A stretch of 33,716 nt of DNA, taken from an uncultured Myxococcales bacterium. Lineage in GTDB: Bacteria; Myxococcota_A; Polyangia; Polyangiales; Polyangiaceae. The notes beneath the pieces were generated by a model. That model saw only the letters and a list, made by a program, of their open reading frames with translations, was not told where the DNA came from and did not search any database. The DNA lies in the NCBI GenBank assembly GCA_937902985.1, contig CALFNG010000056.1:1-33716 (forward strand), in the 5' to 3' direction. The number at the start of each line of letters is the position of its first letter. The stretch's first letter is position 1. The position numbers and the translations under genes are program-made. Positions 13,171 through 32,086 of the stretch are shown here, piece by piece.

Positions 13171-14442
13171 TCACGGCCAAAGCGTCGGGTGCCCCTCGGG
13201 GCGGGCGAGCTCGAAGCGCACCAGCGCGACCCACGCCGTTCCGGCGACGCTCGGAAGGGTGTCGAACGTGAAGGGCACTTCGACGCTCGCGGTCGGAAGC
13301 GAGCCGTCGTTCGCGCGCAAGGGCTCGAGCGCGTCCAGGATCGCCGCGGCCCGATCGAGGTGTCCCGCTCGCCATTCGGCGAGGGCGACCCCTGCGCTGC
13401 CCTCTGGCCAGACGACGTCGAGTCGGTCCCAGGTCTGGGCGGGCAGCTTCCCGGCGAAATGGCGCCTCACCCCCACGTTCTCGATGAGCGGTCCGGCCGC
13501 GTAGGGCCGGTGACCCCGCGCGCTCGAGCGAGGATCGTGCGAGGCGTAGCGCGCGTCGCCGATCGACAGCGCAGTGTCCGCCCGCGCGCGGTCCCCGCTC
13601 GCACCCAGGAAGATCGAGCCCCAGGACGCGCAGTCGAGGGCGAGCGCCTCATCGGCGCCTCGTTCGCCGAATCCCTGCACGAGCTGTCCGCTGGCGGCGC
13701 TCCACGCCCGGCTCTTCAGGGCACGCGCGATCCGCGCGGCCCCGTCCGTGTACGCGCGCGTCCCGGTGATTCGCCCGAGGGCTCGCAAGAAGAAATAGGT
13801 GTCGACGTTGTGCTCGACCGACGCCCACGAGACCTCGCCCGGGTCATAGACCTCGCGGACGTCTTCGTTCGCGGCTTCGTAGCGGATCGTGCCGTTTCCG
13901 CCGAGCACGAGCCCATCGCGCGGATCGCCCGGGCGATCGACCTGCCTCTCCAGCAGATACCCGGCGGCCCTGTGGGCCAGCGCGAGAATCGCGGCGCGCG
14001 CCGCGGCCGCCGGCTCGTCCGCCGACGCGTCGAGGTAGTCGACGGCCGCGTACCCCACCCATGCGATCGCGCCCGCGCGCTCGAATGGCCTCGCGGGGTC
14101 CGGCCCGGGGAGCGTGAACGAGAACGCGATCCCGCCGCTGGACGTCTGCAGGTGCGCCAGGCCGAGCAAGATCCGTCCGGCACGCTCGCGTTCTCCGGCG
14201 CGCAGCAAGGCCAGCGCGACGAGGGCGCTGTCGTACGACGCGACCCGGTTCGTGGTCGGATCGCTGATCGCCAGCAGGCCCGGCGAGTCCGCGTCCGGCC
14301 AGGGGCGCAGCGACCCGACGAGGAACGACGTGGCGTTCCCCACGGCCGCGCCGGCGACAGGGGCCCGGGCCGCCGGGCCGGCCGTGCACGCGGCAGAGGT
14401 CGTCGCTGCAGCCAGCCCCAGCAAGGCGACACGGAGCTTCAT
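13171..14442 (-). CDS. Lipoprotein with putative alpha/alpha-toroid fold, possible polysaccharide-acting enzyme
   Basis: The 423-aa product starts with a lipoprotein signal (KLRVALLGLAAATTSAAC, C19). Repeated helical blocks follow that resemble (alpha/alpha)6-toroid enzymes: SYDSALVALALLRAGE, AIAWVGYAAVDYLDA, SWASVEHNVDTYFFLRALG and WPEGSAGVALAEWRAG. Aromatic and acidic residues in the YDSAL, EHNVDTY and DCASWGS segments could line an active site. Such folds occur in glycoside hydrolases and lyases and in periplasmic enzymes of exopolysaccharide operons (compare BcsZ or AlgL in role, not in sequence). Its ATG lies in an ATGA overlap with the HEAT gene, making it the last cistron of the glycosyltransferase operon. 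Assignment to a numbered enzyme family is not possible by eye, and enzymatic activity is inferred. Confidence 0.7.
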   Translation of the reverse strand: MKLRVALLGLAAATTSAACTAGPAARAPVAGAAVGNATSFLVGSLRPWPDADSPGLLAISDPTTNRVASYDSALVALALLRAGERERAGRILLGLAHLQTSSGGIAFSFTLPGPDPARPFERAGAIAWVGYAAVDYLDASADEPAAAARAAILALAHRAAGYLLERQVDRPGDPRDGLVLGGNGTIRYEAANEDVREVYDPGEVSWASVEHNVDTYFFLRALGRITGTRAYTDGAARIARALKSRAWSAASGQLVQGFGERGADEALALDCASWGSIFLGASGDRARADTALSIGDARYASHDPRSSARGHRPYAAGPLIENVGVRRHFAGKLPAQTWDRLDVVWPEGSAGVALAEWRAGHLDRAAAILDALEPLRANDGSLPTASVEVPFTFDTLPSVAGTAWVALVRFELARPEGHPTLWP

Positions 14443-17400
14443 CCGACGAGGTGCAGGTGCGTCCGCCGCGCCACGTCGCGAACGTCGGCGTCCGGGTCGG
14501 AGAGCAGCGCGTTGACCGCGTCGCGAACGTCGTCGTCGCTCTCGGCGGCGAGCGCCTGGATGGCGGCGATCCGGACGAGGGCCGACGGGTCCCGGAGCGC
14601 CGGCAAGACGTGGAGCGCGAAGCCGCGCGCGTTGAAGGCGCCGAGCGCGACGACCGCGAACCGGCGCTCGTCGGCGGCGAGCCCGGTCGCGAGCCTGGAG
14701 GCGATCCGATCGGAGAGCGCCGCGGCGCGCGGTTCGGCCTTGAGCTCCATCCGCGTATCCTGCGAGGTGCGTCCCCAGGCCTCGGCGAACGAGCGTAGCC
14801 CTTCCGGCTCCCGGCTCCCGGCGAGGGACGCGAGCGCCGCAGCGCGCACCACGGGCGACGCGTCGCCGAGCATCGCCTCGAGCGCCCGGTGCGCGGCGCG
14901 TCCCGACGTTCCGCTGAGCCGCTCGAGCGCCCTCGCCGCCGCCGCCCGCACGCGCACCGAGGGGTCGCGACGGAGAGCGGCCAGCCGCGTCAGCGCGTGC
15001 GGGGTCGAACCGACCGCTTCGATGACCGAGATGCGGACCTCTTCGCTCGGATCCTCCGCTCTCTCCATGAGGACGTCCGCGACCTGCGCGAACGAGAGCT
15101 GCGCCACCGCCTTGACCGCCTCGGCGCGCACCAGCACGAAGCGCGAGCGCAGAAGCTCGCCGAAGAGCGGGACCATCTCCGGCGTGGCCAGCCGCCCGAG
15201 GACTCGCACCGCCGCCGCGAGGATCTCGGGCGTCTGGTTGCCCATCATCCAGTCGACGAACGAGAGCGTGTCGTCGCGGTGCATGTCGGCGAGGGTCGCT
15301 TCGACCGCTTCCTGGAGATCGTCGCTGCCGGCGCCGAGCCGGCTGCGCAGGGCGGCGATGACCTTGGGGTCGCGCTGCTTCTCGAGCGCCCGAACCGCCG
15401 CCAGTGCCACCTCGGAGTTCAGATCGGCCAGCGCGGTGATGAGCGCCCGCCGCGCTGCGTCGCTGGACACGCTGGACGCGAGCGCCCGGGTCGCGGCCAA
15501 GCGCACGGTTTCGGCGGGGTCGCCGACCGCCGCGTCGCACAGCACCGGAACGGCGCGATCGAGCTGGATCCGCGCGAGCGCCTGCACGGCCACCATCCGA
15601 GCCTCCGCGTCCAGGCTCGTGCGCAGCGTCCTCTCGTACTGCGCGACGAAGGCGTGGGGCGTCGTCGAGCTCGCGCTCGCCGGGTCCTCGAGACGGAGGG
15701 ACGCGAAGAACCTTTGCCGCACGCGCGGATCCTCGTTCTCCATGTACGCGAGCATGCTTTCGAGCGCTCCGTCTTGCCCCAGGACCTCGAAGACCGAGAT
15801 CAGCGATTCTTCGCTGCCGACGAGCGCGAGCGCCACCGTGCGAGCCGCGGCGTCCGCGCCGACGCCCAGGCGGCGAACGCGGGCCTCGACGGCAACGCCC
15901 CCGACCAGGGCGAGCGCGATGAGCGCGCGGTTTCTGACGAACGTGTCCGGGTCGCCCGTTCGCGCCTCGATCGCCAGCGTCGCGCGCGGGTCACCCTGGC
16001 CGACGCGCGCGAGCGCGTTGACGACCGCGGCGCGGACCCGGCCGTCGGGGTCCTCGGCCGCGACGAGCAGCGCTTCGAGCGATTCGCTGCACGGGATCTT
16101 CGCGAGCGCTCCCGCCGCGCTCGCCCGAAGCTGGGCGAACGGCTCCGTCAGGAAGCGCGCGAGCGCGCGGACGCCGCGTCGATCGCCGATCTTTCCCAGC
16201 GTCCATACGACCCCCAGCCGGACGTCGAGCGAGTCGCTCCGCTCCAGCACGTCGAGTCGATCGAAGAGCGCGTCGCGGGCGCCGACGGCGAGCGACGCGG
16301 CGATGCGATCGCGGACCGCCGGCGGAGCGCCGGGGAGCGCGCGAAGGAGCCCCTCGAAGGCCTCGGTACGAGCGACCGACCCGAGCGCGGTGATCGCGGC
16401 CATCCGCACCTCGAGCGACGCGTCGTTCAGGCGCGCCACGAGGGGCTCGACCTTCACGAGATCGGGTCGCTCACCCAGCGCGGCGACGGCGGGCAAACGC
16501 ACCGTATCGCTCGGGTCGGACGCGGCGCAGGTGAGGAGGAAGTCCGCGGCCGGGCCCTGCAGTCGGCCGATGATCACGACCAGGCTCCGCCGGACCACGA
16601 CGCTTCCCGTCTCGTAGGCCGCGACGAACGCCGCGAGGTGCGGCGCGAGGAGCGCCGGGGCGTACCCGACCAGCGCCTCGGACGCGGCCTCGCGCACGGC
16701 CTCTTCGGGATCCGCGAGCGTCCGGACGAGCGCGGCGGGCGCGTCGTCGTGCTTGAGGCGACCGAGCGCCTCGCACACCGACGCGCGGACCGGCCACGCT
16801 TCGTCGTCGATCGCGCGGAGCAAGAGCGGCGCGAGGCGGGCCACGCCGAGGTCTCCGCACGCTCGCGCGGCGGCGGCCCGCACCTCGAACGAACCCCCAT
16901 GTACGTACGAGGCGATGCTGTCGACGAGCCCGACCTCGCCCAGCATCATGAGCGCCGAGTAGGCGCTCGCGCGCTCGGCACGATCTCCCGACGCGAGCTT
17001 GGCGACGACGCGATCGAGGTAGCCGACGCGCTCGAGCGCGAGGGCCGCGCGCCGTCGAACCTCGGCGTTCGGGTCGCGCAGCGCGGCCTCGAGCGGCGAC
17101 GTGTCGGAGACATGCATCGTCTCGAAGGCCTCGAGCGCGCGAATCCGCGTGGCGTAGTCGGGGTCGGCGAGGGCGGCGACGAGCACGTCGACGCCGCGCT
17201 CGCCCTCGATGCGCGCCACCGCGCCCGCCGCGTGGGCACGGACCTGAGGCGCAGGATCGCGCAAGGTCGCGCGCACGATCGGCTGAAGGGCGCGCGGATC
17301 GCCGATGGAGCCCAGCGCTTCGGCTGCGGCCATGCGAAGGCGATCGTCGCGGTCGTGCAGCCGCGCCACGAGGTCGTCGACGGCCCGCGGATCGCCGATG

Positions 17401-18068
17401 CGCCCGAGGACGCGCGCAGCCCACACCCGCGCCGCGCCCTGCGACGGGTCGGCGAGCAGCCCCAACAGCGCGGGAGTGGCCATCGTGCCGAAGGCGGTGA
17501 GGGCCTCGGCGATGGTGCGCGACGACTGCTCGTCGGCCTCGGCCAGCGTTTCGACGAGCAGCGGGATGGCCGTCTCGTCGCGCAGCTGCGCGAGGGCCGC
17601 GGCGGCGGCGCTCTTGACCGACGTCCGGTCCTCGTTGCGATCGCGCAGGGCGCCGACCAGCGCCGGCACCGCCGACGACAATCCCGCGAGCCCGAGGATC
17701 GACGCCGCGTGCTCCCGCTCGCTCCAGCGAGGCGCCTCCCGGAGCCGCCGGCAATACTCATCCACGAGTTTCAGCTCGCCGAAGAGACGCGAGCCCCACT
17801 CCTTCTGGGACGCGTCCGATGATCGCAGCAGGGACAGGACGACGCGCTCGTTGGTCTGGGCGTCGAAGCGCTTCGCGAGCGCGTGGGCCAGCGGCCCCAC
17901 GTCGCCCTTGGCCGCGCCCGCGACCAGCTTCTGACCCTCGGCGATCTGCCGGAGGGCGCGCGTCGTCTTCCAGCGTCGAAACGCCTCGCGACCCAGGATC
18001 CAGGTCGCCGGTAGGAGAGCCAGGCCCAGGAGGGCAAGCGTGGCCCACAACGCGACGGCGGACTTCAC
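14439..18068 (-). CDS. Giant membrane-anchored HEAT-repeat protein (1209 aa)
   Basis: An N-terminal membrane span (about 5-25, ALWATLALLGLALLPATWIL) is followed by a short basic stretch. Then some 1150 residues of HEAT/PBS-lyase-type repeats continue to the C terminus. The repeating unit is about 31 residues with a D-P/V-R-A-A-ALG core, for example DPRALQPIVRATLRDPAPQV and DPSVRVRAAAARALERL. No catalytic domain is seen, so a scaffold or protein-binding solenoid is likely. By the positive-inside rule (basic GREAFRRWK after the span), the solenoid should be cytoplasmic. The GTG start is in a GTGA overlap with the response-regulator stop, and its own stop overlaps the toroid lipoprotein start. 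The operon position suggests it physically links the regulator to the glycosyltransferase complex, which is inference. Confidence 0.88.
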   Translation of the reverse strand: MKSAVALWATLALLGLALLPATWILGREAFRRWKTTRALRQIAEGQKLVAGAAKGDVGPLAHALAKRFDAQTNERVVLSLLRSSDASQKEWGSRLFGELKLVDEYCRRLREAPRWSEREHAASILGLAGLSSAVPALVGALRDRNEDRTSVKSAAAAALAQLRDETAIPLLVETLAEADEQSSRTIAEALTAFGTMATPALLGLLADPSQGAARVWAARVLGRIGDPRAVDDLVARLHDRDDRLRMAAAEALGSIGDPRALQPIVRATLRDPAPQVRAHAAGAVARIEGERGVDVLVAALADPDYATRIRALEAFETMHVSDTSPLEAALRDPNAEVRRRAALALERVGYLDRVVAKLASGDRAERASAYSALMMLGEVGLVDSIASYVHGGSFEVRAAAARACGDLGVARLAPLLLRAIDDEAWPVRASVCEALGRLKHDDAPAALVRTLADPEEAVREAASEALVGYAPALLAPHLAAFVAAYETGSVVVRRSLVVIIGRLQGPAADFLLTCAASDPSDTVRLPAVAALGERPDLVKVEPLVARLNDASLEVRMAAITALGSVARTEAFEGLLRALPGAPPAVRDRIAASLAVGARDALFDRLDVLERSDSLDVRLGVVWTLGKIGDRRGVRALARFLTEPFAQLRASAAGALAKIPCSESLEALLVAAEDPDGRVRAAVVNALARVGQGDPRATLAIEARTGDPDTFVRNRALIALALVGGVAVEARVRRLGVGADAAARTVALALVGSEESLISVFEVLGQDGALESMLAYMENEDPRVRQRFFASLRLEDPASASSTTPHAFVAQYERTLRTSLDAEARMVAVQALARIQLDRAVPVLCDAAVGDPAETVRLAATRALASSVSSDAARRALITALADLNSEVALAAVRALEKQRDPKVIAALRSRLGAGSDDLQEAVEATLADMHRDDTLSFVDWMMGNQTPEILAAAVRVLGRLATPEMVPLFGELLRSRFVLVRAEAVKAVAQLSFAQVADVLMERAEDPSEEVRISVIEAVGSTPHALTRLAALRRDPSVRVRAAAARALERLSGTSGRAAHRALEAMLGDASPVVRAAALASLAGSREPEGLRSFAEAWGRTSQDTRMELKAEPRAAALSDRIASRLATGLAADERRFAVVALGAFNARGFALHVLPALRDPSALVRIAAIQALAAESDDDVRDAVNALLSDPDADVRDVARRTHLHLVG

Positions 18069-18439
18069 CGCCGTTCCAGGAGCCCGATCAACGTCTCCAC
18101 GACGGTCTTCGGATCGATGGGCTTGTTGAGGAAGACGTCGGCACCCGACTGGATCGCCCAGAAGCGATCGGCCGCCTCCGTCTTGCCTGTCAGGATGACC
18201 ACGGGCAGCTCGGGGGCCATGCGCTTCATCGCGCGGCAGGCTTGATACCCGTTCATCTCGGGCATCGTGACGTCGAGCACGACGGCGTCCGGGCGATCGC
18301 GTTCGACGACCCCGAGGGCGACTTCGCCGTTGTGGGCGAGCGTCGTTCGGTACCCGAGCGCGCGAAGGCGAACCTCGAGGAACTCGACCCCCTTCAGGTT
18401 GTCGTCGACGAGCAGGATATGGGCGCCGGCCGGGCTCAT
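18065..18439 (-). CDS. Single-domain CheY-like response regulator
   Basis: This 124-aa protein is a complete receiver with no output domain. The acidic pair D12/D13 lies in HILLVDDN, the phospho-acceptor is D56 in AVVLDVTMPEMNG, T84 is in VILTGKTEA and K106 is in FLNKPID. All key residues for phosphorylation are present. With no DNA-binding or enzymatic domain it must act by protein contact. It lies between the sensor kinase (ATGA overlap) and the HEAT protein (GTGA overlap), so these are its obvious partners. It could alternatively be an intermediate in a phosphorelay. Confidence 0.93.
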   Translation of the reverse strand: MSPAGAHILLVDDNLKGVEFLEVRLRALGYRTTLAHNGEVALGVVERDRPDAVVLDVTMPEMNGYQACRAMKRMAPELPVVILTGKTEAADRFWAIQSGADVFLNKPIDPKTVVETLIGLLERR

Positions 18440-19731
18440 GAACCCACCGAACCGGTTGCCGGACCGGACCGAAGTATCGCGTTCGAAGCGCTCGAGTGAC
18501 GCTTGGGGGCCGCCGAGCCCTCGGGTTTTTCGAGCGGCCCGGCGGCCGCGTCGCGCCGTGTCCGCATGTCGACCGGCAGGTGGACGACGAAGCTGGCGCC
18601 CCCGCTCTCGCTCGCGCCGGCGCGGATGTCGCCTCCGTGGCTCGTGGCGATCTCCTGCGCGACCGCGAGACCGAGGCCGCTGCCGGCCACGTGCCCGTCC
18701 CGCTCGAGCCGCACCCCGCGGCCGAAGATCCGCTCCCGGTCCTCGACGGGGATCCCGGGTCCCGTGTCGCTTATCGTCAGCTCGGCGTGCGTGCGCGCGG
18801 CCGCCCCCTCGCGCGAAGGCTCCGGCGTTCGCGAGCGCGCGGAGAGCTTCACGTGTCCGTTCGGCGGGGTGAACTTGATCGCGTTGGCCAGGAGGTTCAC
18901 GACCACCTGTTTGATCTGCAGGGCGTCGCCCCAGACGCGCACCGGTGCGGGGGCGTCGACCTCCAGCGTCACGCCTTTGCGCTGGGCCGCCTCGGCGAAC
19001 GCGCGCCCCATCGCGAGGGCGATCTCCGAGAGATCGATCAACGTACGCCGCGCGGTGCGCTGCAGCGGCAGCGGCGGCGCACTGAGCGCGCGCGGGGGCA
19101 CCTCGGTACGCACCGTGCGACCGAAGCGCTCGAGCATCGCGCCCATGTCGGTCGCCGCCTCGATGATATCGTGGACGTGCGTCGCTTGCGCGTCGGTGAG
19201 CGGGCCCACGAGGCAGTCGCGGAGATTCGCGGCGAAGCCAAGGACGATGCCGCACAGCGCGCGCCCGTCGTGCGCCAGCGTTTGCCCCTCGGCTCGGAGC
19301 GAGGCCATGCGGGCGAGGGCCAGCCGCAGGTCCTCCTCGAGCTTGCCGCGCTCGGCGGCGGTCGCGAAGCCCCGCGGCGGAAGGAGGGACGCGAGCAGCA
19401 CCGGCAGGCCTGGGCCGTCGGTGGTGACGTGGTCGAGGCCGAGGCCCCCGACCCGTGCCTCGTCGACCCCGCCTTCGGCGAGCCCCACGACGACCGTACC
19501 CCGGAGGCGGCCTTCTTCGCGAAGCGCCCCGGCCAGCGGCAAGAATCCCTGCGACTCCCGCGCGATCTGCAGGACCACGACGTCGAAGCCCGGCCTGCCG
19601 AGGATCGCCAGGGCGTCGACGTTGGGCAGGGCGCACGAGACCGCCGCGCCGGCCGCCCGCAGGGGCCCGGCGACGCGCTCGCACGCGGGCTCGTCTCCGG
19701 CGACGACGACGATGACGACGCCTCGCAACAT
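18436..19731 (-). CDS. Sensor histidine kinase with N-terminal pseudo-receiver
   Basis: The 431-aa product has no membrane span. Residues 1-115 have receiver-like alternation (VVIVVVAGDEPACERVAG, DVVVLQIARE), but the phospho-acceptor Asp position is occupied by Gln or Ile, so this is a pseudo-receiver. A helical segment leads to a HisKA-like region with probable H154 in LAHDGRALCGIVLGFAANL, which lacks the usual RTP after the His. The HATPase domain is intact: N box QVVVNLLANAIKFTPPNG, G1 DTGPGIP and G2 GSGLGLAVAQEIA. Its start overlaps the glycosyltransferase stop by one base (TGATG), and its stop overlaps the response-regulator start. The natural phosphorylation target is probably the adjacent regulator. 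The signal may be sensed through the pseudo-receiver. Confidence 0.88.
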   Translation of the reverse strand: MLRGVVIVVVAGDEPACERVAGPLRAAGAAVSCALPNVDALAILGRPGFDVVVLQIARESQGFLPLAGALREEGRLRGTVVVGLAEGGVDEARVGGLGLDHVTTDGPGLPVLLASLLPPRGFATAAERGKLEEDLRLALARMASLRAEGQTLAHDGRALCGIVLGFAANLRDCLVGPLTDAQATHVHDIIEAATDMGAMLERFGRTVRTEVPPRALSAPPLPLQRTARRTLIDLSEIALAMGRAFAEAAQRKGVTLEVDAPAPVRVWGDALQIKQVVVNLLANAIKFTPPNGHVKLSARSRTPEPSREGAAARTHAELTISDTGPGIPVEDRERIFGRGVRLERDGHVAGSGLGLAVAQEIATSHGGDIRAGASESGGASFVVHLPVDMRTRRDAAAGPLEKPEGSAAPKRHSSASNAILRSGPATGSVGS

Positions 19732-21245
19732 CAGGCGGGCCTTGCGGCAAATCCCTTGCGCGCGAACTTGTCCCAGCCCTGCTTTCCCTTCAGAAAGTCG
19801 TAGAGCCCCTTGAGCTGCCAGGCCACGAGGTACTGCCGGTACCCGAGATTGGAGAGGAACCCCGCCACGAGGAGCACGAGGACGTCGCGCAAGCGGTCGT
19901 ACCTGAACAGCGACAGGCCCTCGACCGCGCTCGCCGCCCCGCGCTCGGAGCGGACGCAGAGCAAGATCGAGAGCGTGCTCAGCGCGAGGTTCGTCGCCGC
20001 GGCGAGCGCCATGAACGAGAGGAGCGCCTTGAAGGAGAGGATGTCGAGCGCCAGCGTCAAGACGAGGACGAGATAGCCCGCGCACTCGATGACCGGCGCC
20101 AGGGCTTCGAAGAACAGCTGGTAGGGTAGCGAGAAGAGGCCCACCTGCCGGAAGCGTGGATTGAAGATCATCGACCGGTGGTAGCTGAGTACCTCCCACA
20201 GTCCGCGGTACCACCGCGAGCGCTGCTTGCCGATGTCGCGGTAGTTCTCCGGCGCTTCCGTCCACGCCGTGGGGAATGGCAAGATCGTGATGGCCCCGGG
20301 CAGCTTCTTGTCCAGGAGATAGCGGTGCAGCCGCACGACGATTTCCATGTCTTCGCAGACGGTGTGGACGCCCTCGCCGCAGTACTCGATGCCCACGCGC
20401 GAGCGGATGCGCTTCGTCAGGAAGCCGCCGATCGCGAGCACGAGATCGCGCCGCATCAAGGCGAAGACGCCGGAGAGCACGAGCAGCGAGCGTAGGGCGG
20501 CGAACGCGACCCGGCCCTGGGAGAAGGAGCGCATGTACTCGACGATCTGGAATCTACCGATCCAGGTCTTCGGCAGGCGCATCTCGACGACGCGGCCGTC
20601 GCTCACGACCGATCCGTTCGACATTCCGACCTGGACCCCGACGGCGACGATGCCCTCGGGGTCGACGAGGATTCGCCGCGCCGCCAGCAGCAGCGCGTCC
20701 GGCGTGAGCAGGCTGTCGGCGTCCATGCTCGTCACGTACTCGCCCTGGGCCAGGTTGATGGCCGCGTTCAAGGCGTCGGCCTTTCCGCCGTTCTCTTTGT
20801 CGATGAGAACGAGGCGCGTGAGCCCCTGCGGGAGTGCGCCGCGCACCTCGTAGAACCCGCGGATGGGCGCGGTCGCGATCTGCTCGTCGTACTCGATCTC
20901 GGTCCGCACGAAGTGGAACGCGCGGAGGAGCTCCTGGACGGTCTTGTCCTTCGAGCCGTCGTTGCAGATGACGATCTCGAACGCCGGATACCGGAGGCGC
21001 AGCAGGGAGCGGATGCTGTCGCAGATCGTGACTTCCTCGTTGTAGGCGGGTACGAGCAACGTCACGAGGGGCAGGAAGCGGTCCTGCTGCCGATCGAGCG
21101 CGGGTCGCACGTGCTCGCCGGCCAGCTCGTCACGGATCCGCAGCGCGCTCAGGACCACGAAGGCGACGTTGATCGCGAAGAACACGAGGACGTACGACAC
21201 GATGAGTGCGTCGAGCGTCGCGATGAGTACGGAGACGATGCGCAT
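19731..21245 (-). CDS. Processive family 2 glycosyltransferase (polysaccharide synthase, PgaC/NfrB/BcsA-like)
   Basis: This 504-aa inner-membrane enzyme is likely to polymerise a beta-linked sugar on the cytoplasmic face and pass it through its own channel. An N-terminal span (about 5-35) precedes the GT-A domain. Motifs are VTLLVPAYNEE, CNDGSKDKT (D96), DKENGGKADALNAAI, SMDADSLLTPD (D175/D177), CEDMEI (E298/D299) and the processive-synthase motif QRSRWYRGLWEV (341-352). At least four C-terminal spans follow. No PilZ domain is attached, unlike BcsA. An ATG at 21245 is preferred over a TTG 3 codons upstream. It is first in the five-gene overlapping operon and divergent from the outer-membrane barrel gene. 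The exact sugar (GlcNAc, glucose or ManNAc) cannot be read from the sequence; the nearby deacetylase favours an N-acetylated hexosamine. Confidence 0.9.
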   Translation of the reverse strand: MRIVSVLIATLDALIVSYVLVFFAINVAFVVLSALRIRDELAGEHVRPALDRQQDRFLPLVTLLVPAYNEEVTICDSIRSLLRLRYPAFEIVICNDGSKDKTVQELLRAFHFVRTEIEYDEQIATAPIRGFYEVRGALPQGLTRLVLIDKENGGKADALNAAINLAQGEYVTSMDADSLLTPDALLLAARRILVDPEGIVAVGVQVGMSNGSVVSDGRVVEMRLPKTWIGRFQIVEYMRSFSQGRVAFAALRSLLVLSGVFALMRRDLVLAIGGFLTKRIRSRVGIEYCGEGVHTVCEDMEIVVRLHRYLLDKKLPGAITILPFPTAWTEAPENYRDIGKQRSRWYRGLWEVLSYHRSMIFNPRFRQVGLFSLPYQLFFEALAPVIECAGYLVLVLTLALDILSFKALLSFMALAAATNLALSTLSILLCVRSERGAASAVEGLSLFRYDRLRDVLVLLVAGFLSNLGYRQYLVAWQLKGLYDFLKGKQGWDKFARKGFAARPA

Positions 21246-21282
21246 CGCTGACAATAGGCCACTTTCACGTTACGTCCGCTCT
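21246..21282. promoter_or_regulatory. Very short AT-richer divergent promoter region
   Basis: Only 37 bases separate the chosen starts of the glycosyltransferase operon (minus) and the outer-membrane barrel gene (plus). This stretch and the following 15 bases are notably AT-richer than the surroundings (GTGGTTTATTCTAGG near 21283). That is the only obvious promoter-like patch here. The two promoters probably overlap or lie partly inside the coding ends, implying shared control. No confident -35/-10 pair was found. Confidence 0.35.
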
Positions 21283-22662
21283 GTGGTTTATTCTAGGTGG
21301 CTCGCGGGCCGCGCCCGCAGAAAACCACCGCGATTTCCGCTTCGCCCCGCGGCCTTCGCCGCGGGTGCGGCGGCTGCCGCGGTCGCGAGCGCACTCGTGG
21401 GCGCGCCCGCTCGCGCGTCGGACTGCGTCGCTTCCAGCTACGCCACGGTCGCGTCGGACCGTGACGTCGCCATCGTCGAAGCCGGTTCGCTGTCGAGCAG
21501 CGGGCGATGGGCGGATGCGCGAGCGGTCTACTTGTGGGTGCTCGCCCGTCACGAAGACGATCCCGAGGCCCTCTTCGGCCTCGCGCGGCTCGACGCCTGG
21601 GGTGGGTGTTACCCGCTGGCCGAAGCCGGATACCTGCGCGTCCTTTCCACCCACCCCGAAGACGCCGATGTGCGCGCGGCCTACGTCGACCTCCTGCTCT
21701 GGGAGGGGAGCCTCGACGACGCCGAGCGGATCCTCGCGCGGGGGCTCGCGCTCGACCCGGGCGCTCCGCCCCTTCTCGAGCGGGCCGCCCGGCTCGCCTA
21801 CTGGTCGGGCGACGCGACCGCGGCGCTCCGCCTCGCCGACGCTGCGGAGCGGGCGGCGCCCGACGACGGCGATCTGCGCGCGGAGCGTGACCGGCTCTTC
21901 CTCGGAGAGGCGCGCGCGACTGCGCGACTCGACCGCTATCCGTCGCCCTACCAGGATCTGGCGACGGTGGGGGCGCAGGTGCTCCAGCGGATACGGCGCT
22001 TCGATCTCTATGGCGGCGCCGAGATGGTCGCGCGCCTGGGCCAGCCCAGCGTGGTCGACGCTCACTATCCGGTCGGGCTCGCCTTTCACCCGTCGACCGG
22101 CGTCACGTTCGGGGGCGAGATCGAGCCGGGGGCGCCGGCCCGGGCCATTGCGGACGTGGCGCTCAAGGTCTGGGCGCAGGCGCCGCTCACGCATCGATTC
22201 GACGCGTCCCTGGCCTATCAGTTCTGGCACTTTTCGGCCGGCCCCGAGCTCGTTCACATCTTCAACCCGGCCCTCGGCGTGGCCCTCCCCGACGACCTTC
22301 GTCTCGAGCTCCGCGCCTGGCTGTCAGCGGCCACGTTGTTGACGCAGCCGACGCAGGCGACGCAGCCATCGGGAGCGAGCTCCACCGGTGTCACCGGAGC
22401 GGCCGGATTTCAGCTGTCATGGCGCGCGTCGGCTCGGCTGGATCTCGGCTTCGCTTGCACGTACGGCGCCGAGCTCGATCAGAACCCCGCGCTGCTCCAG
22501 CTTCTCGCGTACCGGGCGCTCGTCGTCAACGCGTACGCCGATCGCCTCTTCAGCCGCAGCTGGGGCTTGCGTCCGACGCTCGGGATCGATCGACGGGAGG
22601 CCCCCGGCGGGACCGCGCTCTGGGTCCCGTCGGTCGAGGTGAGCGCCTACACGCGGTGGTGA
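21283..22662 (+). CDS. TPR + outer-membrane beta-barrel export protein (YaiO/PgaA-like)
   Basis: The 459-aa product has a basic N terminus and a long Ala-rich signal sequence ending near APARA-SDC (about residue 45). Residues about 55-215 are TPR-type repeats (ARAVYLWVLARHEDDPEAL, AEAGYLRVLSTHPEDADVR, AERILARGLALDPGAPPLL). Residues about 225-459 alternate polar and aromatic residues like beta strands and end in an aromatic residue (SVEVSAYTRW), as in outer-membrane barrels. The order TPR then barrel matches YaiO-family and, in smaller form, PgaA/BcsC exporters. Its divergent placement against the synthase operon suggests it is the outer-membrane exit for that polymer. The start is GTG at 21283. 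No upstream ATG gives a signal peptide, as the longer frame reads back into the opposite gene. Confidence 0.82.
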   Translation: MVYSRWLAGRARRKPPRFPLRPAAFAAGAAAAAVASALVGAPARASDCVASSYATVASDRDVAIVEAGSLSSSGRWADARAVYLWVLARHEDDPEALFGLARLDAWGGCYPLAEAGYLRVLSTHPEDADVRAAYVDLLLWEGSLDDAERILARGLALDPGAPPLLERAARLAYWSGDATAALRLADAAERAAPDDGDLRAERDRLFLGEARATARLDRYPSPYQDLATVGAQVLQRIRRFDLYGGAEMVARLGQPSVVDAHYPVGLAFHPSTGVTFGGEIEPGAPARAIADVALKVWAQAPLTHRFDASLAYQFWHFSAGPELVHIFNPALGVALPDDLRLELRAWLSAATLLTQPTQATQPSGASSTGVTGAAGFQLSWRASARLDLGFACTYGAELDQNPALLQLLAYRALVVNAYADRLFSRSWGLRPTLGIDRREAPGGTALWVPSVEVSAYTRW

Positions 22663-22669
22663 GCGCTCA
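22660..22669. terminator. 10-bp palindrome formed by two converging stop codons
   Basis: TGAGCGCTCA is a perfect palindrome whose outer triplets are the TGA stops of the plus-strand barrel gene and the minus-strand gene downstream. It leaves the two genes only 4 bases apart. There is no T tract, so a terminator role is weak; it may be coincidental. Confidence 0.3.
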
Positions 22670-23800
22670 GCGTTCGAGCCGAGCGCGCGACGAGAGCAGC
22701 CGGGAGACGATCGGCGCATAGAAGCCCCAGAAGAACGACTCGTCGCGCCCGCCGCCGCCGCAGCCGCCGGTAGCGCGCGCCTGCCGGTAACCGAGGAGCC
22801 ACGCGCGCTCCGGATTGCCCAGCTCCATGGCGTTGTCGACGAAGTCGCCGGCGAAGTAGTAGGCCTCGCCGCGCCTCGTGACGGCCGGGAATCGGAGCCG
22901 CAGCCCGTGCCCTTCGAGCTTCGCTTGACCGGCCGCGGTCGTGTGGACGACGTGCTCGTAGAGGACGTCGCTCCCCGCGGCGTCGAGGACGTCGATCCAG
23001 TACCAGAACTGGCCGCGCTCCGGAAACCCGAACTCGGCGCCCGTCGAGGTGCGGTCCTGCGTCAACACGTCGCCGTCGAGATCGACCTTCTCGCGCAAGA
23101 CGACGATGTCGCCGTCTTCGTGCACGAAGACGAGCCCGGCTCCCGTGAGATCGAACGGGGCGCCGTAAACCCGCTCGTATGTTGCGCCGACCCACCGCGG
23201 GACCTCGTTCGCGTCCTGCAGATCCGGCCAGTAGCGCGCGACCCATCGCGTCCACCGCACGCCGAAGAGCTGTTCGAGGCGCGACCGCGCGGCCGCGCTC
23301 GTCGGCGAGGCGAAGGTGTTGAACTCGGCGAGCACCATCCCGCCTTTCGCCGCGAAGGCCTCGATGGCGAAGGCCTCGGCGACCGACAGTCCGCCGTAGA
23401 TCTTGGGGCTGCGCTCGAGGGCCGCCTGCTCGCCGGGGTGGGTGTAGTCCCCAGTGTAGGCCCCGTAGGTATCGGCGACGACGAGCACGTCCGCGGTGGC
23501 CAGGTCCTCGGGGGTAAGGTCACGACCGGTCTTCGTCGCCGGATCGAAGCCAAGGTAGTCGCGCGCGGGATCGAGGAAGCCGCCGGTCTTCTGGTGGATC
23601 TTGAGCGCGTGCAGTAGCCACGCAATCGCCGCGTGCTCGCGGTAGTTCCGGAAGGGGACCGTCTTGTCGACCAGGACGACGCCGAGCGCGCGCGCGGGCG
23701 CGAACCACCACGCGACGTGCGGCGCGACCGCGACGGCGAGCGCGAGTCCGACGAGGGCGCCGATTCGGCCGATTCGAATAATGCGCGCGCTCGGTGGCAA
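22667..23800 (-). CDS. Membrane-anchored extracytoplasmic protein of unknown function, amidotransferase-like core
   Basis: The 377-aa product has one N-terminal span (about 14-33) and then an extracytoplasmic alpha/beta region. Segments such as ALGVVLVDKTVPFRNYREH, LATADVLVVADTYGAY and AFAAKGGMVLAEFNTFASPT look like the open alpha/beta fold of class I glutamine-amidotransferase-like (ThuA/PfpI-type) proteins, but no catalytic triad could be fixed. Later segments are Trp/Tyr-rich (GQFWYWIDVLD, GEAYYFAGDFVDNAMELGNP), suggesting carbohydrate contacts. A similar ARKGGVVAIFKPVGTPDEP stretch lies in the deacetylase encoded divergently, so the two proteins may share a fold. The only start is TTG at 23800. 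It lies between the barrel and deacetylase genes, so a role in the same exopolysaccharide system is likely but unproven. Confidence 0.72.
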   Translation of the reverse strand: MPPSARIIRIGRIGALVGLALAVAVAPHVAWWFAPARALGVVLVDKTVPFRNYREHAAIAWLLHALKIHQKTGGFLDPARDYLGFDPATKTGRDLTPEDLATADVLVVADTYGAYTGDYTHPGEQAALERSPKIYGGLSVAEAFAIEAFAAKGGMVLAEFNTFASPTSAAARSRLEQLFGVRWTRWVARYWPDLQDANEVPRWVGATYERVYGAPFDLTGAGLVFVHEDGDIVVLREKVDLDGDVLTQDRTSTGAEFGFPERGQFWYWIDVLDAAGSDVLYEHVVHTTAAGQAKLEGHGLRLRFPAVTRRGEAYYFAGDFVDNAMELGNPERAWLLGYRQARATGGCGGGGRDESFFWGFYAPIVSRLLSSRARLER

Positions 23801-23846
23801 GCGAAGGTGGCGTCATCCTATCTGCGAAGAGCGGCCGCCGGGTGTA

Positions 23847-23860
23847 GTCTCGTACGAGAC
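23847..23860. promoter_or_regulatory. 14-bp perfect palindrome immediately before the deacetylase start codon
   Basis: GTCTCGTACGAGAC is an exact 14-bp palindrome ending one base before the ATG at 23862, inside the 61-base divergent region with the TTG-started gene at 23800. It occupies the place of the ribosome-binding site. It could be an operator for a dimeric regulator acting on both genes, or a hairpin controlling translation. It is less GC-rich than the surroundings, so it is less easily explained by composition than the other palindromes here. Confidence 0.45.
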
Positions 23861-23861
23861 G

Positions 23862-26150
23862 ATGCCTCGGGCTTCCCAGCGACGGACGGCCGCGTTCGCC
23901 GCGTTCGCCGCGTTCCGTCTGCTCGGTCCCGTGTGCGTCCTCGCTGCCGGCGCCGCCGGATGTGCGCGCGACAGCCTGCGGTCGTCGCACGGGGAGTCTG
24001 CGGGTCACGGGATCGCGGCGACGCCGCCCTCGCCGCCAAGCGGCGTCACGACCGGCGCGGAGTCGTCGTCGTCGGCGACCGTCGTCCCCAACCCCGCCGC
24101 GCCGACCGCTCGCTTCGGCGGCCGCGAGATCGAGACGGCGTGCAACGGCCTCGACGACGACGGAGACGGCCTCGTCGACGCGCTGCTTCCCGTGGAACCC
24201 AACGCCTGCTCGACCGCGCTCAAGGGCGCGTGCTCGCGCGGGTTCGCGGCGTGCGAAGACGGCCGCCGCGTGTGCCTCGGACCGGCGCCGATGCCCGAGG
24301 TCTTCGACGGGGTCGACAACGACTGCAACGGCGTGATCGACGACGTGCCGGCCGCGGTCGTCCGGCCGCGCGCCCTCGTGCTGGCTCCGCGCTACGCCTG
24401 GCTCGACGCGGCGCCGGACATCGCCGACGTGACGTTCGCGCTCGGGCAGGCGGGCATCCCCTTCGACTCGCAAGCCCCCGGCACGGACTGGTCTTCGGCG
24501 CTGGCCACGCTCGGCCGGTATTCGCTCGCGGTCGTGCCGGGATACCTCGTCGGCGACGGCTTGAGCGCGCGCGCGCGGGAGGCGCTCGAGACCTTCGCGC
24601 GCAAGGGCGGCGTCGTCGCCATCTTCAAGCCGGTGGGAACGCCCGACGAGCCGCAAGCGTGGAAGCTCGCCGGGCTGCGCTCCTCGACGCGGAAACGCGA
24701 CGTGCTCGAGCTGCGCTTCGACGGAGCGCGCCCGCCGGCGGTCACCGACCTCGACAGCCCCGAGGAGCGGCGCGTGCCGGTCAACGAAGTGGTCGCGGCA
24801 GGGCAGGCCGTCGGCGTCGAGGTCTACGCCCTCGATCCCGATCCCGCCGAGAAGATGGACGTCGTCGCCCACGGCGTCTCTTCCGCCGAGTCGCGACCGG
24901 CCATCACCCGCAGAGCGCTCGGCAGCGGAGCGATCTACGCGTTCGGCCACGACCTCTCGACGTACGCCCGCCAGCGCTGCTACGTGAACTGCTTCGAGCC
25001 CGCCGGCGACCTGCTGCGGCTCGTGCTCGAAGGGATGTTCCGCGAGAGCGCCGCGGGGCACGTCGTCCTCAAGCACACCGTGCCCGGCGAGGCGTCTTCG
25101 ATGCTCATCGTCACGCACGACATCGACGCGCCCGACGCCGACAACGAAGGGCCGTGGGGCCCACCGGGAGCGCTTCAGGTGGCGGCGCTCGAGCTGGCGC
25201 GCGGCGTTCGCGCCACCTTCAACGTCACGACCGACTACGTCAGCGGCTACTACAACGAGGCGACGATGCGCCAGCTGTGCGCGCTCGGCCTCTGCCCCCT
25301 CGGCGCGCACTCGGTCACGCACACCGCGGGCTTCGCGGGCCTCCCGCTCGGGACGTGCACCGAGACGCGCGCGACGTACACCTCGGCGAAGTCGGTATGC
25401 GGCGAGATCCGCGTCTCTCGCGATCTCCTGCAGGCGCTCATGGGGCGGCCGCCGCGCGTCTGGCGCTCGCCGTACCTCGTGTTGCCTCCGCACCTCTTCG
25501 AAGAGCTGGCGAAGAACGGGTTCTCCTACGACTCGGGGTTCGGGGTCGGCGACTTGCCGTACAACCTTCCGATCGATCTCGAGACGGTGGGCTTTCACCA
25601 GGATCGCTACGAGCACGCTCCGATCGTCGAATTTCCCATCGCCCTCGAAGACGGGCGCGCCGAGAGGGTCGGCGACGCGACGAGCCGGGTCGAGCTCAGC
25701 GACTCGACCCGCGCGCGCTTCGAGACCCTGTGGGACTACACCGCGCTGCGGAACGTCCAGAACCGGAGCTACACGACCCTGCTCTTGCACCCGTCGCGAG
25801 GGCGAGACATGCCGCCCGAGAACCTGAGGCGCAAGCTCGAGATCCTCGACGCGTTCGAAGGCCGCGCCCTCGCGCTCGATCTCGTCGCGCGCCCGCTCGA
25901 AGAGGCCGGCGATTTCTGGCGCGCACGGCTCGGAGTGCAGCTCGACGCGACGTACGGCGCGACGGGCTACGCCGGGACCCTCGTCGTAGGCAAGCTGCCC
26001 GTGACCGGCCTCACCCTCGAGTTCGGCGACGCCGTCCGCGAGTTCACCTGCGCGGCCTGCGGTCGGGCGGCGCTCCACGGAAAGCGCGTGGTCCTCGCCG
26101 ACATGCTGCCGGCGGGCACCCGGGCGTCGTTCGTCGCCTCCGTCCGGTGA
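23862..26150 (+). CDS. Lipoprotein polysaccharide deacetylase (CE4-like) with MopE-type metal motif
   Basis: The 762-aa product starts with a lipoprotein signal (CVLAAGAAGC, C34). A Ser/Pro/Thr linker leads to a Cys-rich MopE-like putative metal-binding segment (CNGLDDDGDGLVD, then FDGVDNDCNGVIDD, about 94-161). Residues about 168-365 look like an amidotransferase-type alpha/beta domain without obvious catalytic residues. The CE4 deacetylase domain follows: motif 1 LIVTHDIDAPD (D420, D422), motif 2 GAHSVTHTAGF (H483, H487), motif 3 RVWRSPYLVLPP and a late LLLHPS. Such enzymes remove N- or O-acetyl groups from glycans; PgaB does this on periplasmic PNAG. The location beside the synthase and barrel genes fits a PgaB-like job, though PgaB's own hydrolase domain is absent. 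A peptidoglycan or O-acetyl substrate remains possible. Confidence 0.85.
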   Translation: MPRASQRRTAAFAAFAAFRLLGPVCVLAAGAAGCARDSLRSSHGESAGHGIAATPPSPPSGVTTGAESSSSATVVPNPAAPTARFGGREIETACNGLDDDGDGLVDALLPVEPNACSTALKGACSRGFAACEDGRRVCLGPAPMPEVFDGVDNDCNGVIDDVPAAVVRPRALVLAPRYAWLDAAPDIADVTFALGQAGIPFDSQAPGTDWSSALATLGRYSLAVVPGYLVGDGLSARAREALETFARKGGVVAIFKPVGTPDEPQAWKLAGLRSSTRKRDVLELRFDGARPPAVTDLDSPEERRVPVNEVVAAGQAVGVEVYALDPDPAEKMDVVAHGVSSAESRPAITRRALGSGAIYAFGHDLSTYARQRCYVNCFEPAGDLLRLVLEGMFRESAAGHVVLKHTVPGEASSMLIVTHDIDAPDADNEGPWGPPGALQVAALELARGVRATFNVTTDYVSGYYNEATMRQLCALGLCPLGAHSVTHTAGFAGLPLGTCTETRATYTSAKSVCGEIRVSRDLLQALMGRPPRVWRSPYLVLPPHLFEELAKNGFSYDSGFGVGDLPYNLPIDLETVGFHQDRYEHAPIVEFPIALEDGRAERVGDATSRVELSDSTRARFETLWDYTALRNVQNRSYTTLLLHPSRGRDMPPENLRRKLEILDAFEGRALALDLVARPLEEAGDFWRARLGVQLDATYGATGYAGTLVVGKLPVTGLTLEFGDAVREFTCAACGRAALHGKRVVLADMLPAGTRASFVASVR

Positions 26151-26196: not shown

Positions 26197-26820
26197 TTAG
26201 GACAGGAGGCGATACGAGACGGCACGCCTCTCGGCGCCCGTGAGGGGCCAGGCGTAGGCGTGGTCGCTTTCGAGCGTGGCGCGCGGGTGCGCTGGCGGTC
26301 CGTCCTTCGCGAGGAGCACCCAGACGACGCCGCCGGGCGCCGCGAGCGTCGTGGCGAGCTCGAGCCAGGCGGGAGGCGCCAGCGTGGCGCGCGAGATCGC
26401 GACGTCCCAGGCGCGCCGGCCCGTCAGCGCCTCGCCGCGGCCTCGCTCGATGGCCACGTCGGCGCGGTTCAGGGCTCCGACGACCGTACGGAGGAAGCTC
26501 GTTCGCTTCGCCAGCGGCTCGACGAGCGTCACGCGCAGGTCGTCGCGCAAGAGCGCCAGCGCGAGCCCCGGAGCGCCGGCGCCGGCGCCCACGTCAACGA
26601 CGCGCGCCCCCTCCGGAATGTGCGGCGCGAGCACGAGCGCGTCGGCCACCATCAGGTCGACGAGCTCGTCGTCGGTCCGCGCCGCGGTCAGGTCGATGCG
26701 CGCGTTCCACTCCTTGAGGCGTTCGAGCCAGACGCCGAGCGCGTCGCGCACCGGGTCGGTCAGGTCGGCGCCCAGCGCCGCCGCCGCGCGCGCGATCGAG
26801 GGTCCGAGCTTGGCGACCAT
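26197..26820 (-). CDS. rsmG: 16S rRNA (guanine527-N7) methyltransferase RsmG (GidB)
   Basis: The 207-aa product methylates G527 of 16S rRNA with S-adenosylmethionine. It shows the RsmG pattern: LKEWNARIDLTAAR (about 35-48), the SAM-binding VVDVGAGAGAPGLALALL, VTLVEPLAKRTSFLR and the family marker WDVAISRATLAPPAW. With the ATG at 26820 the protein has the usual family length. In-frame starts further upstream (ATG 26871, TTG 26892) would add 17-24 residues unlike the family and would overlap the divergent kinase start. It converges on the deacetylase gene across a 46-base pyrimidine-rich gap where no hairpin was seen. It is isolated here from mnmG/parAB, its frequent neighbours. Confidence 0.92.
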   Translation of the reverse strand: MVAKLGPSIARAAAALGADLTDPVRDALGVWLERLKEWNARIDLTAARTDDELVDLMVADALVLAPHIPEGARVVDVGAGAGAPGLALALLRDDLRVTLVEPLAKRTSFLRTVVGALNRADVAIERGRGEALTGRRAWDVAISRATLAPPAWLELATTLAAPGGVVWVLLAKDGPPAHPRATLESDHAYAWPLTGAERRAVSYRLLS

Positions 26821-26869
26821 CCAGCCGCAGTGGTACCTCTCCCGCCGGGCCGCCGCGAGCCCGAACACC

Positions 26870-27982
26870 ATGGCCGGACTCAGCCCCAACAAACCGCCCG
26901 CGCATGCGTCCGCGGAAGACCTCGATCTCGCGCCGCTCGACGCGCTCGTCGCGCGCGCGTTCGCCAGGGCGTCGCGGGTGGGCGCGTGGCAGCCGATGGC
27001 CGGCGGCGCCTCGACCCGGCGCTACGTTCGCGCCCATCTGTCGGGCGGCTCGGCCCCCTCGGTCGTGGGGATGTTCGTGCCCGACGGGGCGAAGCCCGAG
27101 GAGATCGCTCAATCAGGCGCGACGGCGGCGCGGTGGCCGTTCCTCGAGGTGCGCGACCTCCTCGCTTCGCGCGGCGTCGACGTGCCGGCGGTTCATGCCG
27201 AAGACACGGCCCGGGGCTGGGTGCTCCTCGAAGACCTCGGCGACGAGACGCTCGCCGTCTTCCTCGCGGCGCACCCCGAGCGCAAAGAAGAGCTCTACGT
27301 CGGCGCGGTCGGCGATCTGGCGCGCGCGCAGCAGGCGCTGTCGACGCTGCCGGCGGGCAGCGTCGTGGCGAAGCGCGCGTTCGACGAGGAGCTCGTTCAC
27401 TGGGAGATCCAGCACTTTCGCGAGTGGGCCCTCGACGCGCGGGGGACGACGCTGTCGCCCGAAGATCGTGCCATGTTTGACGGCATCGCGCAGCGCCTCG
27501 CCCGCCGCATCGCGGGCGGTCCGCGCGTCTTCGTGCACCGCGACTACCAGTCGCGCAACCTCATGGTGCGCCGCGCGCCGCCTGGCTCGGCCGGCGGGGT
27601 GTGGCGCTCGCTTGCGTGGATCGACTTCCAGGATGCCCTGCTCGGCCCGCGCGTCTACGACCTCGTGGCGCTCTTGAACGACAGCTACCAGACCTTCGAT
27701 CGCGCGTTCATCGAGGCCCGGCTCGACGAGTACGCGCGCGCAGCGGGCCTCGACGTGGCGTCGCGCGGCGAGCTCGGTCGCGACTTCGATCGCGTGACCG
27801 TGCAGCGCAAGCTCAAGGACGCGGGGCGCTTCGTCTTCATCGACCGCGTGAAGAAGAACCCGTCGTTCCTGAAGTTCGTCGAGCCGACGATCGCGAAGGT
27901 GCGCGCGAGCCTGGCCCGCCTGAGCGACGAAGAAGACATGAACGCGCTCTCCAACCTCCTCGCGCGCGTGCTCCGCGGATAA
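26870..27982 (+). CDS. amgK: AmgK-like sugar kinase (aminoglycoside phosphotransferase fold)
   Basis: The 370-aa cytoplasmic kinase has the APH fold: GGASTRRYVRAHL (substrate and ATP lobe), WVLLEDLGDETLAVFL (about 117-132), catalytic loop VHRDYQSRNLMV (D225, N230) and metal-binding AWIDFQDALLGPRVYDLVAL (D252). These match the AmgK family, which phosphorylates MurNAc/GlcNAc at the anomeric position in cell-wall recycling. The usual partner MurU nucleotidyltransferase is not adjacent. The stop codon is followed after 4 bases by the TTG of the GH35-like gene, so the two are very probably coupled. The start ATG lies in a CCATGG that also reads as an in-frame ATG for rsmG on the other strand. Kinase family is firm; the exact sugar is inferred. 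Confidence 0.85.
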   Translation: MAGLSPNKPPAHASAEDLDLAPLDALVARAFARASRVGAWQPMAGGASTRRYVRAHLSGGSAPSVVGMFVPDGAKPEEIAQSGATAARWPFLEVRDLLASRGVDVPAVHAEDTARGWVLLEDLGDETLAVFLAAHPERKEELYVGAVGDLARAQQALSTLPAGSVVAKRAFDEELVHWEIQHFREWALDARGTTLSPEDRAMFDGIAQRLARRIAGGPRVFVHRDYQSRNLMVRRAPPGSAGGVWRSLAWIDFQDALLGPRVYDLVALLNDSYQTFDRAFIEARLDEYARAAGLDVASRGELGRDFDRVTVQRKLKDAGRFVFIDRVKKNPSFLKFVEPTIAKVRASLARLSDEEDMNALSNLLARVLRG

Positions 27983-30071: not shown

Positions 30072-30092
30072 CCTGAGGCCGACGGAGCCACC

Positions 30093-31595: not shown

Positions 31596-31687
31596 GGGCA
31601 GCGCGGGGAAGGCGCGCTCGGGGCTGATCCATTCCGCGAGGCCGCGTTTGGTGCGCTGCGAAGCCCCGTGGTACGCCCCGCGCTCGC

Positions 31688-32086
31688 ATGCTCTCGCGCC
31701 GCGCCGCCGTAGTCTTCGCCCTCGTCGATGTCGTGACCGCGGGCCTCATCGCGCTCGGCGTGTTCGTGGGCCTGCCGTCGCGCTGGGCGCCCGTCGACTT
31801 CGCCGCCATCGCGCTCGTGCTGCTGGATCTCGCGTCGGGCGTCGGTCTCCTCGCGGCAAAACCGTGGGCGGCACGCCTCGCCCTCTGGGCCTCGGGGGTC
31901 GCGCTCGGCGTGGGGCTTTGGCTGATCACCATTCTTGCCGTCACCGCGGGCTGGCTGAGCGGCGTCTACGGGCCCGTCGGCCTCGGGGGCTCGGTCATTC
32001 TCGCGCTCGTCGCGGCCCTCGTGCTCCCGTATCTGGTCGTCGTTCCCGTCGTCCGGCTGGTGTGGCTGCGCGAGGCCCGGCGGTGA
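31688..32086 (+). CDS. Small polytopic membrane protein of unknown function
   Basis: The 132-aa product is almost entirely hydrophobic, with about four predicted spans: AVVFALVDVVTAGLIALGVF, FAAIALVLLDLASGVGLLAA, LALWASGVALGVGLWLITIL and SVILALVAALVLPYLVVVPV. A basic C-terminal tail follows (RLVWLREARR). No family is recognised. It is separated from the O-acyltransferase by 92 bases with no clear structure, and its stop overlaps the next gene's GTG start (GTGA), so the two are probably coupled. It may be an accessory subunit for the membrane-anchored toroid protein that follows. Confidence 0.72.
   Translation: MLSRRAAVVFALVDVVTAGLIALGVFVGLPSRWAPVDFAAIALVLLDLASGVGLLAAKPWAARLALWASGVALGVGLWLITILAVTAGWLSGVYGPVGLGGSVILALVAALVLPYLVVVPVVRLVWLREARR

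Follow-up and report, generated by a model that had tools for sequence, protein, structure and literature searches.

A probable GT2 exopolysaccharide secretion locus with a putative HEAT-repeat control subunit in an uncultured Myxococcales bacterium

Introduction

Known Gram-negative synthase-dependent exopolysaccharide systems typically include a part that binds cyclic di-GMP (c-di-GMP); the survey giving their four-part definition knew five polymers and makes no mention of HEAT repeats (PMC7112194). Here we analyzed an eight-gene block in a 33,716-nucleotide stretch of DNA, hereafter the window, from contig CALFNG010000056.1 (assembly GCA_937902985.1) of an uncultured Myxococcales bacterium. 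The block encodes a glycosyltransferase family 2 (GT2) synthase, a histidine kinase (HK), a single-domain response regulator (RR), a HEAT-repeat protein, an outer-membrane barrel and three further proteins. It is probably a distinct-clade GT2 exopolysaccharide secretion system, in which the HEAT protein acts as a cytoplasmic control or docking subunit switched by the phosphorylated RR. No paper describing a HEAT–GT2 exopolysaccharide system was found in the literature searched, most subscription journals lying outside it.

Several described systems resemble this block in part. PgaABCD, which makes poly-N-acetylglucosamine (PNAG), likewise combines a GT2 synthase, a tetratricopeptide-repeat (TPR) outer-membrane barrel, a CE4 deacetylase and a glycan hydrolase function, the last being predicted for the window. 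Unlike in PgaABCD, the window GT2 forms a separate clade and scores below the PgaC cut-off, there is no PgaD, and the two-domain deacetylase-hydrolase PgaB is not matched, CE4 and glycosidase being separate proteins here. PgaCD bind c-di-GMP (PMC7112194), and the window locus has HEAT and REC proteins in that place. The cellulose (Bcs) and alginate (Alg) systems share a processive synthase, TPR with an outer-membrane pore and a periplasmic glycan-cleaving enzyme, whereas in the block scanned neither PilZ nor a BcsB-like co-polymerase was found, and a HEAT/REC module stands instead. Pel has the GT4-type PelF and the transporter PelG, whereas the synthase here is a GT2; the two are alike in having a barrel and a deacetylase, and some relatives of the window locus carry a degenerate GGDEF receptor with an I-site. 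Lastly, the yaiP-yaiO-yaiS locus of E. coli also holds a GT2, the YaiO barrel and a deacetylase together, but YaiP falls outside the clade and the locus has neither HEAT nor REC.

With regard to the four-part definition (PMC7112194), the window locus has an inner-membrane polysaccharide synthase (the GT2 with its transmembrane segments and QxxRW motif), an outer-membrane part (TPR and a YaiO-like barrel) and periplasmic modifying enzymes (lipoproteins with predicted CE4 and (α/α)6 glycosidase folds). The c-di-GMP-binding part was not found: PilZ, GGDEF and PgaD-like domains are absent from the block proteins scanned with Pfam and NCBIfam, the scan having stopped short of the truncated gene with which the window closes. 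As three of the four parts are present and the c-di-GMP part is lacking, the locus is therefore classed as a variant of the synthase-dependent exopolysaccharide systems and not as PNAG.

Synthase Clade and Its Linkage to HEAT and REC Genes

The GT2 matched PF00535 with E = 1.1e-23, and its QxxRW motif reads KQRSRW. Residues D99, D178/D180, E301-D302 and Q344-R347-W348 are common to 12 homologues in the alignment. QxxRW and C-terminal membrane segments are marks of processive GT2 synthases. The best NCBIfam model was PgaC/IcaA (TIGR03937), whose family test failed at 106.9 bits against a cut-off of 422. Both E. coli PgaC and YaiP fell outside the window GT2 group in the tree, a separation partly expected for a group fetched by its own profile. 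The nearest relatives among the matches listed were those of Labilithrix sp. and Myxococcales bacterium 68-20 (about 80%), which points to a probable Polyangia-type myxobacterium as the source. The protein is predicted to be a processive polysaccharide synthase of a distinct clade.

The GT2 alignment alone was searched against 84,980 species, each represented by a single genome, and the best 80 matches gave 80 loci. A further search of 193 genomes of the class brought the set to 93, or 92 distinct loci, since a single contig is listed as both L026 and L086. A same-strand HEAT gene adjoined the GT2 in 82/93 loci and a REC domain was present in 77/93, which is telling because the loci were fetched with the GT2 alone. 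Over the 80 loci, HEAT genes reached a density of 0.435 per kb (66 genes) at 1–2 kb from the GT2 midpoint, with nearly none beyond 3 kb and a density of about 0.00–0.01 per kb farther out than 5 kb. For REC genes the peak was 0.312 per kb at 2–3 kb, and past 5 kb about 0.03 per kb remained. The linkage of both to the GT2 is far above chance. The two largest Louvain clusters were disregarded as shadow open reading frames (ORFs) of the GT2 frame.

By record title, the loci, several of them from metagenome-assembled genomes, include members of Myxococcota, Bacteroidota, Gemmatimonadota, Acidobacteriota, Pseudomonadota, Bdellovibrionota, Bacillota, Mycoplasmatota, Actinomycetota, Chloroflexota, Spirochaetota, Deinococcota, Neomarinimicrobiota and Verrucomicrobiota. 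A preliminary description of this DNA, made from its letters, had proposed looking for the whole gene set in Myxococcota and beyond. The GT2 with HEAT and REC indeed recurred in more than 12 phyla; this conservation held for the HEAT/REC core and not for the full set, as the CE4, glycosidase and anchored proteins are absent from most relatives. The usual order is REC-HEAT-GT2, and that of Myxococcota is GT2-(HK)-RR-HEAT; since HEAT and REC stay with the GT2 while the order varies, the link outlasts reordering. In one clade (L040, L043, L045, L051, L072, L073, L076, L090 and L101), the HEAT-like part and the GT2 form a single ORF, representing one fusion event; Pfam HEAT_2 was above cut-off in the fusions of L076 and L045, scored weakly in L040 and gave no hit in L072. 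Full-length orthologues of the window HEAT protein are 35–58% identical to it. Most of the 11 loci without HEAT reached a contig end, had the gene a few kb off (L033) or, in Mycoplasmatota, had an enlarged GT2 ORF in which HEAT gave just a weak signal. One of the loci, L029, was considered as a break in the pairing and rejected, because a full-length HEAT orthologue (45% identical) lies on another contig of the same genome (L124, G193:C132:82441-86094), with no other window genes beside it. The rank of REC and HEAT as the commonest neighbours across phyla, together with the fusions, supports the view that both belong to the synthase. The window locus has every feature of this HEAT-coupled group, namely a GT2 of the clade, an adjacent or fused HEAT and a nearby REC.

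Export Barrel, Accessory Proteins and Product

The barrel protein contains TPR_19 in Pfam, matches PgaA and BcsC weakly in NCBIfam and scores 96 bits with a YaiO-barrel profile, and a C-terminal RW is kept in ten homologues. A TPR/YaiO-type barrel was detected in 41/66 diderm or unresolved loci versus 0/27 monoderm loci (Bacillota, Mycoplasmatota, Actinomycetota and Chloroflexota). Because the barrel occurs only where an outer membrane exists, the product is read as an exported polymer; this distribution would fit poorly with a lipid-linked intracellular product. In a distant member of Myxococcota (L025), the genes of the barrel, a short HEAT protein, the GT2, the glycosidase and the CE4 protein overlap or abut in one operon, which ties the accessory genes to the synthase. 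The assignment to synthase-dependent exopolysaccharide systems made in the preliminary description is supported by this operon together with the QxxRW GT2, the TPR and barrel, the deacetylase and the glycosidase. The same text took a GT2 operon kept without barrel and deacetylase as evidence to the contrary; such operons do occur with regard to CE4, and the missing barrel of monoderms is expected.

The lipoprotein at the end of the operon, earlier called a putative toroid, was confidently predicted by AlphaFold to have an (α/α)6 glycosidase fold (pLDDT 85.9, pTM 0.87). Its best structural match is the methylmannose polysaccharide hydrolase MmpH (7qsj; Z 33.5, root-mean-square deviation 2.6, 307 aligned). 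It carries a signal and the lipobox-like MKLRVALLGLAAATTSAAC, and E208, D268 and E345 are invariant acidic residues of the family (alignment A4). As the (α/α)6 fold is common to hydrolases, epimerases and phosphorylases, hydrolysis is what we infer for this protein. The family was present in 4/193 class genomes, all GT2-bearing, for which arithmetic gives a chance of about 1e-5 on four genomes that are related.

The CE4 lipoprotein retains the metal-binding and catalytic motifs THDxD, HSxxH, R-x-P and LLxHP, and also contains MopE-like Asp-rich repeats and an amidotransferase-like domain. Its profile matched polysaccharide deacetylases and beta-galactosidase amidotransferase-like domains, with no match to E. 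coli PgaB. The family occurred in 5/193 class genomes, 4 with the GT2, hence in 4/13 GT2-bearing class genomes. The anchored protein was found in 3/193 class genomes, all with the GT2 and once on another contig, and members of its family stand next to the GT2 in about 13 loci, those of Bacillota, Spirochaetota and Bacteroidota among them. Its AlphaFold model (pLDDT 79.4) gave a modest Foldseek match to 1o1y (8.6e-6, TM-score 0.36 of the query). No Pfam or NCBIfam family was assigned to the glycosidase-like or the anchored protein, and sequence-profile searches of the PDB with both families returned nothing useful, so the folds were needed. The CE4, glycosidase and anchored proteins are accessory. 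Beside HEAT–GT2 in Bacteroidota and related loci, a sulfatase-fold (PF00884) protein with C-terminal TPR was observed (L044:4803-7265), a possible polymer-modifying transferase.

These proteins invite another reading, a PNAG or poly-hexosamine pathway proper, in which the GT2 would be a divergent PgaC, the TPR/barrel PgaA, and the CE4 and glycosidase proteins would do the work of PgaB. PgaC/IcaA is indeed the top model for the GT2, but at 107 bits, and PgaC and YaiP lie outside the clade; the barrel resembles PgaA weakly. A deacetylase and a glycosidase-like protein are both in the block, but the profile of the former did not match E. coli PgaB, PgaD is missing from the block, and 9/13 GT2-bearing class genomes lack a window-type CE4. 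We regard this pathway as doubtful though tenable, and the PNAG-like (hexosamine) product named in the preliminary description was not established.

Signal Input and Proposed Mechanism

In the window RR, the DD pair, the phospho-acceptor Asp, Thr and Lys are all intact. The HK has a 39% identical orthologue in L016 and is conserved less than the other members, many loci being without it; its N-terminal part, read by eye, may be a degenerate receiver domain. Short ORFs encode a single-domain RR in 39/74 loci. In other loci, the REC partner is either a single-domain RR or a larger protein of REC-GGDEF-REC type, whose N-terminus is often Hpt-like or ODP (PF19583). The common theme appears to be receiver-to-HEAT signalling.

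In the mechanism that we favour, the GT2 would polymerise sugar from nucleotide-sugar and thread the polymer through the inner membrane, and the TPR/barrel protein would take it across the outer membrane, both roles being assigned by homology. The CE4 deacetylase and the glycosidase-fold lipoprotein, whose roles come from homology or fold, would trim it. The HK would phosphorylate the RR, which would then dock on the membrane-anchored HEAT superhelix, and the latter would contact the cytoplasmic face of the GT2 and switch polymerisation. The HEAT–GT2 contact is proposed because of the fusion and the linkage; the polymer identity, the RR–HEAT binding, the direction (sign) of control and the gating itself are likewise what we infer.

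Four points weigh against this mechanism. As HEAT repeats accept many binding partners, the target of the RR may lie elsewhere. Over 74 loci the REC acceptor residue is Asp 55 times and Glu 19 times, so phosphorylation does not serve the whole family; of the earlier idea of a phospho-signal acting through a HEAT scaffold, the tie of REC and HEAT to the synthase is supported by linkage and fusions. Repeats inflate the similarity between the long Myxococcota and the short HEAT forms. Finally, the CE4, glycosidase and anchored proteins are patchy, most relatives being without them. As a separate observation, the Glu-for-Asp receivers beside HEAT are possibly locked-on receivers.

The HEAT protein could mainly be an assembly or localisation scaffold that places synthase and exporter, with REC/HK setting position and not catalysis. 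The protein ranges in length from about 350 to 1209 residues among loci at constant linkage, and its transmembrane anchor and the fusion would suit such a role; the constant REC pairing suggests switching, yet localisation stays compatible with it. We consider this alternative rather unlikely.

It also seems unlikely that c-di-GMP is the true input, through GGDEF-type receptors nearby or elsewhere in the genome, with HK/RR as an extra layer. GGDEF domains occur in the REC partners of about 25 relatives, two Myxococcota loci among them, with a degenerate A-site in 22/25 and an RxxD I-site in 11/25 (one contig counted twice), and these partners resemble PelD-type receptors, so some of the loci may still sense c-di-GMP. 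However, the I-site is lacking in 14/25, the window block has neither GGDEF nor PilZ, and many loci have the single-domain RR only. The preliminary claim that c-di-GMP control is replaced thus holds for the window block and is too strong for the family at large. The last alternative, that the two-component genes and HEAT are mere neighbours with an unrelated role, might draw on the frequent absence of the HK but is highly improbable in view of the distance control, the linkage kept despite reordering and the fusions.

Beyond the switched HEAT subunit proposed for the window, the chances seem even that a phylum-spanning synthase family is gated by a HEAT subunit bound by receivers, as an alternative to PilZ/PgaD/PelD control. 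Equally balanced is the proposal that its inputs are plug-in: HK-RR in the window, Hpt/REC/degenerate GGDEF, and the oxygen-binding-type ODP in Clostridia, Mycoplasmatota and Spirochaetota. If true, such gating by protein phosphorylation and HEAT in a widespread group of synthases would bring a control principle that is new to biofilm polymers. The span of monoderms and diderms would make the minimal unit (REC, HEAT, GT2) separable by comparison from the outer-membrane part, and would offer testable matrix-formation genes for poorly known phyla. Directly upstream of a HEAT–GT2 fusion, L040:6389-8482 encodes an ODP-type metallo-beta-lactamase domain with degenerate GGDEF and REC. The arrangement also occurs in L043, L045, L051, L072, L076, L081, L090, L101 and L103, PF19583 being confirmed in L040 and the others resting mostly on alignment. 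It hints that oxygen or redox state may feed into polymer synthesis.

Gene Map and Neighbouring Genes

The genome size is 8.3 Mb and the window G+C is 72%. All eight block genes (Table 1) have coding-type codon bias. The bases read directly indicate that the GT2, HK, RR, HEAT and lipoprotein genes each overlap their successor, by 1 base at GT2/HK, ATGA at HK/RR, GTGA at RR/HEAT and ATGA at HEAT/lipoprotein. Together with the domain scans, these junctions confirm the overlapping operon described earlier. Starts were corrected to 14442 (lipoprotein), 18439 (RR) and 19731 (HK), and 23862 is the probable ATG position of the CE4 gene. An Rfam scan found no RNA family.

Table 1. Positions of the block genes and of the genes on either side.
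Feature	Position	Strand	Basis or remark
GT2 processive polysaccharide synthase	19731..21254	-	N-terminal transmembrane helix, GT-A domain, C-terminal transmembrane helices; PF00535 + PF13641
Cytoplasmic HK	18436..19731	-	PF02518 5.3e-26; no transmembrane helix; H-box, N, G1, G2 boxes read
Single-domain RR	18065..18439	-	PF00072 7.6e-26
1209-aa HEAT-repeat protein	14439..18068	-	HEAT_2 PF13646 2.8e-109; one N-terminal transmembrane helix (residues 1-19)
Lipoprotein, (α/α)6 glycosidase fold, putative glycan-trimming hydrolase	13171..14442	-	AlphaFold + structure match
TPR + outer-membrane β-barrel exporter	21289..22662	+	TPR_19; divergent from GT2; start uncertain, about 21280-21400
Membrane-anchored periplasmic protein, class-I glutamine-amidotransferase-like fold	22667..23800	-	Foldseek; no Pfam family
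CE4-type polysaccharide deacetylase lipoprotein	23862..26150	+	PF01522 1.5e-6, PF11617; divergent from anchored protein
ClpA/B-like AAA gene	10561-13062		downstream of block
rsmG/GidB	26197-26892		bounds other side of block

Outside the block, positions 27987-33714 encode a GH35-like glycosidase, an AlgI-type MBOAT acyltransferase, one small protein and, in truncated form, a possible second helical toroid; this group neighbours the block, but rsmG and an APH-type kinase intervene. Positions 584-2635 and 2257-3999 hold a tandem pair of similar membrane proteins; a Pfam scan of 584-2635 gave no family.

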